Shown piece by piece: positions 9,090 through 11,584 of a stretch of DNA of 46,460 nt. Each line of letters begins with the position of its first letter. The first letter of the stretch is position 1. A program made the translations under genes and the position numbers. Location of the stretch: contig JANWKE010000002.1 of assembly GCA_025451535.1 (NCBI GenBank), positions 1-46,460 of the forward strand, read 5' to 3'. Source of the stretch: Verrucomicrobiia bacterium (lineage in GTDB: Bacteria > Verrucomicrobiota > Verrucomicrobiia > Limisphaerales > UBA11358). Below the pieces are notes generated by a model. It saw only the letters and a program-made list of their open reading frames with translations, had not been told where the DNA came from and ran no database searches.

Positions 9090-10745
9090 TCACAACCGGT
9101 TCAAGGCACTCAAGACGGCGCGCACGGAAGCCAGTTCAATATTCGTGTCCACGCCGGCACCCCAGCGGGTTTTACCGTCACTACGTTTGATTTGAATATA
9201 GGCAATCGCCGCGGCTTCCTCGCCGGAACTCAGGGCGTGCTCGCTGTAAGCCGTGATCTCAAAACTCGGCCCGTCCGCCTTGCTGAATCCATGCACCAAC
9301 GCAGCCAACGGGCCATTGCCCTGGCCGGCGAGTTCCACCACCTTCCCGTCGCACAATAATTTTGCGCGGCATTTGACGATGCCATTTTTGCTCTCCGTTT
9401 CAAATTTCTTGAGCTGCCAGGGTGACGTGCGCTCGATATATTCATTCCAGAACATCTGTTTCAATTCGGCGGCGGTCACTTCACGGCCAAGCTTGTCCAC
9501 TTCATCGTTGGCAATCGGGCCGAACTCGCGCTGCATGTCCTTGGGCAATTCGATGCCGAACTGGCTTTCGAGCAAATACGCCACGCCGCCCTTGCCGGAT
9601 TGCGAATTGACACGAATAACTTCCCGATATTCGCGGCCGATGTCCGTTGGATCAATCGTGAGATACGGCACATCCCAATGCGTGCGGCCGTTCTCCTTCC
9701 ATTCATTCAATCCTTTGCGGATGGCGTCCTGGTGCGAGCCGCTGAAGGCGGTGAAGACCAGTTCGCCCGCGTACGGCTGGCGGGCGGGAACCGTCATGCC
9801 GGTGCACCGCTCATAAACGTCGATAATCGAATTGAGGTCGGTAAAATCCAGTTTCGGATCGATGCCGTGCTGGTAAAGGTTCAACGCCACGGTGACGATG
9901 TCCAAATTGCCCGTCCGTTCGCCGTTGCCGAAAAGCGTGCCCTCAACGCGCTCGGCACCCGCGAGCAAACCAAGTTCCGTCGCTGCCACGCCGGTGCTGC
10001 GATCATTGTGCGTGTGAACGCTGACGATGAGCGAATCGCGATTTTTGATGTTCCGGCAAATCCATTCAATCTGGTCAGCGTAAACGTTCGGCATCGCGAC
10101 TTCCACGGTGTCCGGCAAATTCAAAATCATTTTCCAATCGGGCGTCGGTTGCCAGACCTTCATGACAGCTTCAGAAATTTCCCTGGCAAATTCAACCTCC
10201 GTGGCGCTGAAACTTTCCGGTGAATACTGGAGCATGACCTCCGTACCCTTGAGCCGCGGCAAACGGTCCTTGATCCATTGCGCGCCGCGTACGGCCACTT
10301 CAACGATTTCCTGCTCCGATTTGCCAAAAACGACGCGGCGTTGCGCCGGTGAAGTGGAATTGTAAAGATGAATGATGGCCTTCTTCGCACCGATGAGTGA
10401 TTCCACGGTGCGGTCAATCAAATCTTCGCGTGCCTGCACGAGCACCTGGAGCCACACGTCGTCCGGCGTGCGGTTTTCCTCGATGAGCCGGCGGTTGAAC
10501 GCAAACTCGGTGTTCGACGCGGACGGGAAGCCGATTTCAATCTCCTTGAAGCCGGTTTTCACGAGCGTCTGGAAGAGTTCGAGTTTCTGGCTGACATTCA
10601 TCGGCACGGCCAGCGCCTGGTTGCCGTCGCGCAAATCCACACTGCACCAGCGCGGCGCATGGGTGAGGACGCGGTTCGGCCATTGCCGGTCGGGCAGGCT
10701 GACTGGCGGGAACGGACGGTATTTCTTTGACGGATTCTTGTGCAT
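9090..10745 (-). CDS. leuA: 2-isopropylmalate synthase
   Basis: A 551-residue LeuA that condenses acetyl-CoA with 2-oxoisovalerate, the committed step of leucine synthesis. The catalytic HMGL-like domain has DLRDGNQA with the metal-binding Asp, EIGFPSAS, and HTHNDRSTGVA with metal-binding histidines. The C-terminal part (GNGPLAALVHGF to the end) is the regulatory leucine-binding domain. Length and motifs fit the long 'type 2' LeuA found in actinobacteria and others. The ATG at 10745 is chosen because longer frames would start inside the terminator at 10784-10819. Expression is probably controlled by attenuation through the leader peptide at 10841-10924. Confidence 0.97.
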   Translation of the reverse strand: MHKNPSKKYRPFPPVSLPDRQWPNRVLTHAPRWCSVDLRDGNQALAVPMNVSQKLELFQTLVKTGFKEIEIGFPSASNTEFAFNRRLIEENRTPDDVWLQVLVQAREDLIDRTVESLIGAKKAIIHLYNSTSPAQRRVVFGKSEQEIVEVAVRGAQWIKDRLPRLKGTEVMLQYSPESFSATEVEFAREISEAVMKVWQPTPDWKMILNLPDTVEVAMPNVYADQIEWICRNIKNRDSLIVSVHTHNDRSTGVAATELGLLAGAERVEGTLFGNGERTGNLDIVTVALNLYQHGIDPKLDFTDLNSIIDVYERCTGMTVPARQPYAGELVFTAFSGSHQDAIRKGLNEWKENGRTHWDVPYLTIDPTDIGREYREVIRVNSQSGKGGVAYLLESQFGIELPKDMQREFGPIANDEVDKLGREVTAAELKQMFWNEYIERTSPWQLKKFETESKNGIVKCRAKLLCDGKVVELAGQGNGPLAALVHGFSKADGPSFEITAYSEHALSSGEEAAAIAYIQIKRSDGKTRWGAGVDTNIELASVRAVLSALNRL

Positions 10746-10783: not shown

Positions 10784-10819
10784 AAAACAAAAACCCCACC
10801 GCCGGGTTGGCAGTGGGGT
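10784..10819 (-). terminator. Attenuator terminator upstream of leuA
   Basis: Read on the minus strand, ACCCCACTGCC pairs with GGCGGTGGGGT: 11 base pairs with one G-U, closed by a five-base AACCC loop. It is followed directly by TTTTTGTTTT. This is a strong Rho-independent terminator placed between the leader peptide stop codon (21 nt upstream of the stem) and the leuA start codon. Its loop AACCC can pair with CGGGTT at the end of the leader coding region, giving a plausible antiterminator. Confidence 0.9.
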
Positions 10820-10840
10820 CCGCTAAAATTTGTCAACGAA

Positions 10841-10924
10841 TCAGAACCCGACCGCAGCGCGGCACAACCGCAGCGCGTTCAGCAGCAGGCTCAGATTCAA
10901 ATTACGATTCACCGGGGCAACCAT
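10841..10924 (-). CDS. leuL: leuA leader peptide (attenuation), leucine-rich
   Basis: A 27-codon open frame starting ATG at 10924 and ending TGA at 10841-10843. It encodes seven leucines in 12 codons (core NLNLSLLLNALRL), including three consecutive CTG codons, and ends RAAVGF. A leucine-rich peptide followed 21 nt later by a strong intrinsic terminator just before leuA is the classic layout of attenuation. When charged tRNA-Leu is scarce, the ribosome stalls at the Leu codons and the terminator is not formed. The frame is found directly in the sequence; its function is inferred from position and codon content. The start lies 12 nt after the stop of the zinc-ribbon gene; no strong Shine-Dalgarno is seen. 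Confidence 0.85.
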   Translation of the reverse strand: MVAPVNRNLNLSLLLNALRLCRAAVGF

Positions 10925-10936
10925 AACCGCTCGGAT

Positions 10937-11584
10937 TCAGCGGGTCAAATCCTTTTTCCTCTTTTCAAATCGCTGTTTTTCCCCGTTCCAGGCCACGTCC
11001 ATGCGCAGCGTGGAATTCAACAGCGGCACGAGCAGTTGAATCGCTTTGTTCATTTCGGCCGCATTCTCAAATTCGCATCTGATTCTTTCTCCGTGCCGCA
11101 CGACCAGGTTCAATCGTCCGCTCTTTCCGACGGTAGCGAATCGGGCAGGCGCTTCCATTGCGGCATCGCGAATTTCGGCCAGGTTCAGTTTGAAGTTGGA
11201 CGTGCTTTCGCGCAGCAATTCCTCCGGATCTTCTGCCTCCAATCGTTGCCGTTTCGCCTTTGTTTTCCTGATCGCAAACAGCCACAAAACCAACGGAATG
11301 ATGTTACCCAGAGGGCCCAATAAAGGCGCCACTGCCGCCAAAACGGACTTTGACCCGCCCTCCATCTGGATGAAAAGCAGATCGCTGCGTTCGACAAAGA
11401 CCCGGTATTTACCAGCTGACAAAATGGGAGAAACCAGCCGAACATCGAATGCCAGCCGAGCGGCTTGTGGCGAGGCCGCAGCCTTCCCCTGGCTTACCAG
11501 CGGACTAATGACCGGCTGGCCGTCAATCGGGCAAATGCCCACGTCATCGGCGTATTCCCTTCCGCAGTCGGAACAATTTTTCAT
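10937..11584 (-). CDS. Zinc-ribbon membrane protein of unknown function
   Basis: A 215-residue protein not recognised beyond its parts. The N-terminus has a zinc-ribbon-like pattern (CSDCGREY...CPIDGQP, Cys at 4, 7 and 18) of the kind found in many bacterial membrane-anchored proteins. A hydrophobic stretch (VLAAVAPLLGPLGNIIPLVLWLF, about residues 81-103) is followed by a basic segment and a soluble C-terminal domain. It ends 12 nt before the leuL start, so read-through into the leucine leader is possible. No function is proposed. Confidence 0.6.
   Translation of the reverse strand: MKNCSDCGREYADDVGICPIDGQPVISPLVSQGKAAASPQAARLAFDVRLVSPILSAGKYRVFVERSDLLFIQMEGGSKSVLAAVAPLLGPLGNIIPLVLWLFAIRKTKAKRQRLEAEDPEELLRESTSNFKLNLAEIRDAAMEAPARFATVGKSGRLNLVVRHGERIRCEFENAAEMNKAIQLLVPLLNSTLRMDVAWNGEKQRFEKRKKDLTR

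Follow-up and report, generated by a model that had tools for sequence, protein, structure and literature searches.

A predicted leucine attenuator before leuA and its conservation across an order of Verrucomicrobiota

The window analyzed here, a stretch of 46,460 nucleotides from a Verrucomicrobiia bacterium, carries a short Leu-rich frame and a T-tailed hairpin upstream of leuA, all on the minus strand, which raises the question of whether these elements form a leader that adjusts leuA transcription to the leucine supply. A sequence-only reading had proposed a leucine attenuator at this position, and the elements it described are present: an ATG-to-TGA frame (10924-10841, minus strand) with seven Leu codons, three of them consecutive CTG, and a T-tailed terminator between this frame and leuA (10821-10791, 13 pairs by hairpin scan, loop AACCC). 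When both strands of the whole window were scanned by rule for a short frame combined with a T-tailed hairpin and a promoter just upstream, the leader frame was the single result, and the 146-nt RNA folds 3.8 standard deviations better than its dinucleotide shuffles. Together with the recurrence of frame, terminator and spacing in 60 aligned sequences, these results argue against a chance arrangement. By every comparative test available, the putative leucine attenuator before leuA (10948-10784, minus strand) is real, and it is very probably best explained as a classical ribosome-mediated transcription attenuator sensing charged Leu-tRNA. Its features, in the order of transcription, are:

10943-10948, minus strand: predicted -35 box TTGACC, overlapping the end of the upstream hypothetical gene (10937-11584); a TTGAC box stands at equal distance in relatives
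10920-10925, minus strand: predicted -10 box TATGGT after a 17-nt spacer, containing ATG 10924 (sequence and relatives)
10841-10912, minus strand: leader ORF with probable GTG start, 23 codons, VNRNLNLSLLLNALRLCRAAVGF-stop (window sequence and alignment with relatives)
10882-10899, minus strand: segment 1, the Leu-codon region, predicted to pair with the leader end if no ribosome is present (window fold)
10837-10855, minus strand: segment 2, the leader end, in which GCGGTCGGGTTC (10855-10844) is the 5' half of the predicted antiterminator (duplex, fold and covariation)
10809-10821, minus strand: segment 3, GGACCCCACTGCC, terminator 5' arm and 3' half of the predicted antiterminator (hairpin scan, duplex and covariation)
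10791-10803, minus strand: segment 4, GGCGGTGGGGTTT, terminator 3' arm (hairpin scan and covariation)
10784-10793, minus strand: T tract of the intrinsic terminator, its start partly paired (sequence and hairpin scan)
9090-10745, minus strand: leuA, 2-isopropylmalate synthase of the yeast type, the controlled gene, starting at ATG 10745 (TIGR00970, 722.6 bits, above the cut-off; family assignment TIGR00970/NF002991)

The leuA homologues of 49 genomes of the family and of contigs from named genomes were gathered, and after removal of duplicates 60 element-bearing sequences remained, the window included (contig titles were Limisphaerales, Verrucomicrobia subdivision 3 and Pedosphaera among others, while several, such as Klebsiella and Akkermansia, are labels of mixed bins). 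In the window and its 59 relatives, a Leu-rich frame of 19-24 codons, typically ending in AAVGF-stop, is followed by a T-tailed terminator, and the typical peptide reads V/M-NRNLNLLLTNALLTSAAVGF-stop. The window leader has its seven Leu codons at TTG 10900, CTG 10894, CTG CTG CTG 10888-10880, CTG 10873 and TTG 10867; over the 60 sequences leucine makes up 390 of 1324 leader residues (29%), with all six Leu codons in use. The ORFs measure 60-75 nt, every one a multiple of three, and their C-terminus is conserved, whereas the distance from the stop codon to the end of the terminator 5' arm takes eight different lengths. Triplet lengths set against this variable spacing, along with the use of six Leu codons, are the pattern expected of selection on a translated frame. 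Two further loci stand apart from the alignment: at L063 the leader is kept with an altered conserved Gly codon (AAVRF) and was left out owing to the search pattern, and L040 has leuA with neither leader nor terminator in the region read.

A covariance model was built from the 60 aligned sequences. In the genus, a strong match (E below 1e-6) was found in 42 of the 43 genomes with leuA and in none of the six genomes without leuA; in the sole exception with leuA (G002), the assembly is interrupted by a gap where the leader would lie (L041). Across the order, matches (E<=0.01) were obtained in 258 of 320 genomes, representing 108 of 118 genera; this count includes some weak matches that are due to ilvB leaders or chance, and matches in training genomes are guaranteed by the way the model was built. 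Among 388 genomes drawn across the phylum, only 12 matched besides the window genome and one congener, all of them weakly; matches of the model (R1) outside the order were weak throughout and several arose by chance. Of the 320 genomes in the order, just 169 possess the yeast-type leuA. Genomes without it showed the same leader and terminator before a distantly related, bacterial-type leuA in 20 of 20 sampled cases, all outside model training (one bacterial-type leuA was named by NCBIfam), which indicates that the leader follows isopropylmalate synthase function through gene replacement. The retention of the leader by relatives and by genomes with non-orthologous leuA supports the core claim of a leucine attenuator.

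A different type of leuA leader, with the motif LTSRL, was observed at five loci titled Spartobacteria, Chthoniobacteraceae or Prosthecobacter (L066, L070, L071, L081, L095), where a Leu-codon stretch resembling CCAGCCGACT is complementary to a downstream stretch resembling AGTCGGCTGG; no T-tailed hairpin was seen upstream of leuA at these five. Among the weak matches outside the order, L111 and L117 have Ile/Leu/Val-rich leaders before acetolactate synthase-like genes and at L118 a Leu-containing frame precedes a leuA of the bacterial type; a T-tailed hairpin occurs at all three loci. Branched-chain attenuation may be phylum-wide. In the genome of the window itself, a second near-identical leuA leader (L102, G000:C8:1-1632) sits at the end of a contig, next to a second copy of aspartate kinase. 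It is probably not a paralogue, given that position, the second aspartate-kinase copy and a bin contamination of 4.76%, and most likely comes from another strain within the genome bin.

The start of the leader is best read from the relatives. Their start codons align with GTG 10912, and ATG 10924 lies within the -10 hexamer and is not conserved; for both reasons it was set aside, and the leader peptide most likely starts at GTG 10912. The earlier proposal of a 27-codon leader is thus upheld in its Leu-rich character and corrected in start and length, to most likely 23 codons. The -10 box usually lies 6-7 nt before the first transcribed base. Among 46 clear promoters, the distance from the end of the -10 box to the start codon is 6 nt in 39 and 7 nt in four (the window included), and in shuffled sequences it is scattered over 0-32 nt. 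The transcript is therefore expected to begin at or beside the start codon, which predicts a leaderless mRNA for the leader. A Shine-Dalgarno-like word is absent before 50 of the 60 leaders, and most leuA genes likewise lack one; some Verrucomicrobia are poor in Shine-Dalgarno sites (PMC10783764). The gene upstream of the leader (10937-11584, minus strand) encodes a hypothetical protein of 215 aa whose N-terminus resembles a zinc ribbon (CSDCGREYADDVGICPIDG); Pfam and NCBIfam gave no match for this protein.

Which RNA segments would compete was examined by duplex, folding and covariation analysis. Each of the 60 sequences has the T-tailed hairpin; the terminator is paired in 98.6% of cells and shows coordinated changes, one pair going from C-G to A-U in 20 sequences. 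The predicted antiterminator is formed by the last codons of the leader (GCGGTCGGGTTC) with the terminator 5' arm (GGACCCCACTGC), and not with the terminator loop; in the window it pairs GCGGT-C-GGGTTC with GGACCC-C-ACTGC. The duplex of segments 2 and 3 has a mean energy of -20.1 kcal/mol and a mean z of -3.8 against shuffles of the leader segment, lying at or below the 5% level of the shuffles in 58 of 60 sequences. Its core helix is paired in 96.7% of cells, and the coordinated changes exceed those of all 500 shuffles, which ignore relatedness; kinship inflates the pair counts, so that these values are supportive and are not probabilities. At columns 76 and 123, A-U, G-U and G-C occur and A-C never does. 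Since the segments overlap codons, constraint on the RNA and constraint on the peptide are not fully separable. An antiterminator between the loop AACCC and CGGGTT, as first suggested, can pair in the window but was rejected, because the loop sequence varies and the 6-nt match with the leader end occurs in only 5 of 60 sequences.

In principle, the same leader could act on leuA translation, through Rho or on mRNA stability instead of by intrinsic termination, a view put forward for some leaders of Actinobacteria. Actinobacterial leuA control is not classical attenuation (PMC1262725), and the five LTSRL leaders described above, with their different pairing and no T-tailed hairpin seen, would fit such control; however, the hairpin stands in 60 of 60 sequences here, with a 5' arm that precisely suits capture by the leader end, which makes this alternative quite improbable. 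That the hairpin simply ends transcription of the upstream gene or of a small RNA, with the Leu-rich frame there by coincidence, is very improbable: the hairpin does lie 116 nt past the stop codon of the upstream gene on the same strand, but the frame and its complementarity to the terminator arm are maintained in 60 sequences whose neighbors are diverse, and even where a different leuA follows, and a predicted promoter stands directly before the frame. The first reading taken to the letter, with a leader from ATG 10924 and a loop-based antiterminator, is hardly credible, since both elements exist in the window but the ATG falls inside the -10 box, the starts of relatives align elsewhere, and the pairing of the 5' arm is longer and conserved.

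For the ribosome-mediated attenuator, the states were modeled by folding with the ribosome footprint masked, an equilibrium calculation that substitutes for a kinetic race. With a ribosome stalled on the Leu codons, the antiterminator (2:3) formed in 60 of 60 sequences, and with a ribosome at the stop codon the terminator (3:4) formed in 60 of 60. In the absence of a ribosome, 1:2 formed in 60 of 60 and 3:4 in 59 of 60, with segment 2 paired to the upstream leader. When the nascent RNA was folded before segment 4 was made, again ribosome-free, 2:3 was preferred in 36 of 60 sequences, which makes the behavior of the untranslated state uncertain.

The working of the leader would then be as follows. 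Judging from the -10 spacing, transcription would begin on GTG 10912 or no more than one or two bases away, and a ribosome would initiate on the leaderless 5' end. When Leu-tRNA is plentiful, the ribosome would pass the Leu codons to the TGA and cover segment 2 (10855-10837), so that segments 3 (10821-10809) and 4 could pair and transcription would terminate before leuA. When Leu-tRNA is scarce, it would stall on the Leu codons and cover segment 1; 2:3 would form ahead of the synthesis of segment 4, no terminator would arise, and leuA would be transcribed. If no ribosome is present, segment 1 would sequester segment 2 and the terminator would form. The predicted net effect is that leucine synthesis is on only under leucine shortage.

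This is the same predicted working as in the leu, ilv and trp attenuators of Proteobacteria. The ORF rich in codons for the product, the intrinsic terminator, the mutually exclusive 1:2, 2:3 and 3:4 pairings and the cognate gene place the predicted element among leucine-type ribosome-mediated attenuators. The leuL of Enterobacteria likewise has a Leu-rich peptide and pause, antiterminator and terminator alternatives before leuA, with the same predicted logic, but the element described here belongs to another phylum, has a predicted leaderless start, precedes a yeast-type or bacterial-type leuA and matches no Rfam family. In a search with all families of Rfam 15, including the enterobacterial Leu_leader (RF00512), no match at gathering score was obtained in the region or in nine related loci, and no T-box riboswitch model matched at the region; weak matches to rnk_pseudo and ClpQY_promoter were far below threshold and were discarded.

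The attenuator of Corynebacterium ilvBNC (ilvB-II motif, PMC10272879) shares a branched-chain leader, a terminator and an antiterminator; it differs in phylum (Actinobacteria), in gene (ilvB, not leuA) and in peptide and RNA sequence. Its leader is read without a ribosome binding site, by the account of Morbach et al. (2000) given in PMC10272879. The actinobacterial LEU element (PMC1262725) also carries, ahead of leuA, a leader ORF containing consecutive Leu codons, and it forms a pseudoknot in whose base stem these codons pair with the leuA Shine-Dalgarno. In the element described here, by contrast, the Leu codons are predicted to pair with the end of the leader itself, there is a T-tailed terminator and most leuA genes have no Shine-Dalgarno-like word, which sets the element apart from the LEU class. 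In 2010, Naville and Gautheret surveyed leader-peptide systems known from Proteobacteria and Actinobacteria only and added Firmicutes (PMC2965389). Our literature search, which covered few subscription papers, found no paper on leader-peptide attenuation in Verrucomicrobiota; neither this nor the Rfam result contradicts the initial impression that no Leu leader had been described for the lineage.

Weaker matches of the model within the genus revealed a second attenuator before ilvB, in which MLKNVSQAVILVVVVVSDAVGAC-stop precedes CCCACGGCTGG..CGGCTGTGGG and a T tract, and the genome of the window has a Val-rich leader (MLKNVLQVVNVVVVVASDAVGAC) before ilvB. With a Leu-rich leader before leuA and a Val-rich one before ilvB, the leader codons match the pathway in both. 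Ile/Leu/Val-rich ilvB leaders (MLKNVSQAVILVVVVVSDAVGAC and variants) with a T-tailed terminator were observed in this genome and in relatives (L168 in G000:C40, L148, L150-L154, L156, L157, L159-L162, L164).

A short frame with a T-tailed terminator also occurs before exporters of the EamA/YedA type and, at L155, before a MATE exporter (L103/L189 in G000:C84:5261-6395, L149, L155, L191, L192, L193, L195, L203). These peptides have no amino-acid runs and follow a loose pattern, often AWLR or AWQR and then GGG(R/F); in several, glycine codons (GGCGGTGGG) are complementary to the terminator arm CCCACCGCC. The exporter leaders may sense ribosome stalling caused by drugs or other ribosome-blocking compounds, and may deserve more attention than the leucine leader. 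We tentatively consider, as something short of likely, that leaderless leader-peptide attenuation is general in the order and perhaps in Verrucomicrobiota, covering two leuA types, ilvB, and EamA/YedA and MATE exporters. If so, the leaderless start would dispense with a ribosome binding site and couple transcription initiation to translation initiation.

The same device is conserved throughout an entire bacterial order, for which no earlier description of it could be found. Amino-acid leader-peptide attenuation would thereby extend to most genera of a Verrucomicrobiota order known largely from uncultured genomes, and the leader is a small gene missed by default gene callers. The predicted leaderless start would offer a natural test of attenuation without a ribosome binding site. 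A leader that outlasts the replacement, by a distant relative, of the gene it is predicted to control is a clear case of regulation tracking function, not gene ancestry.
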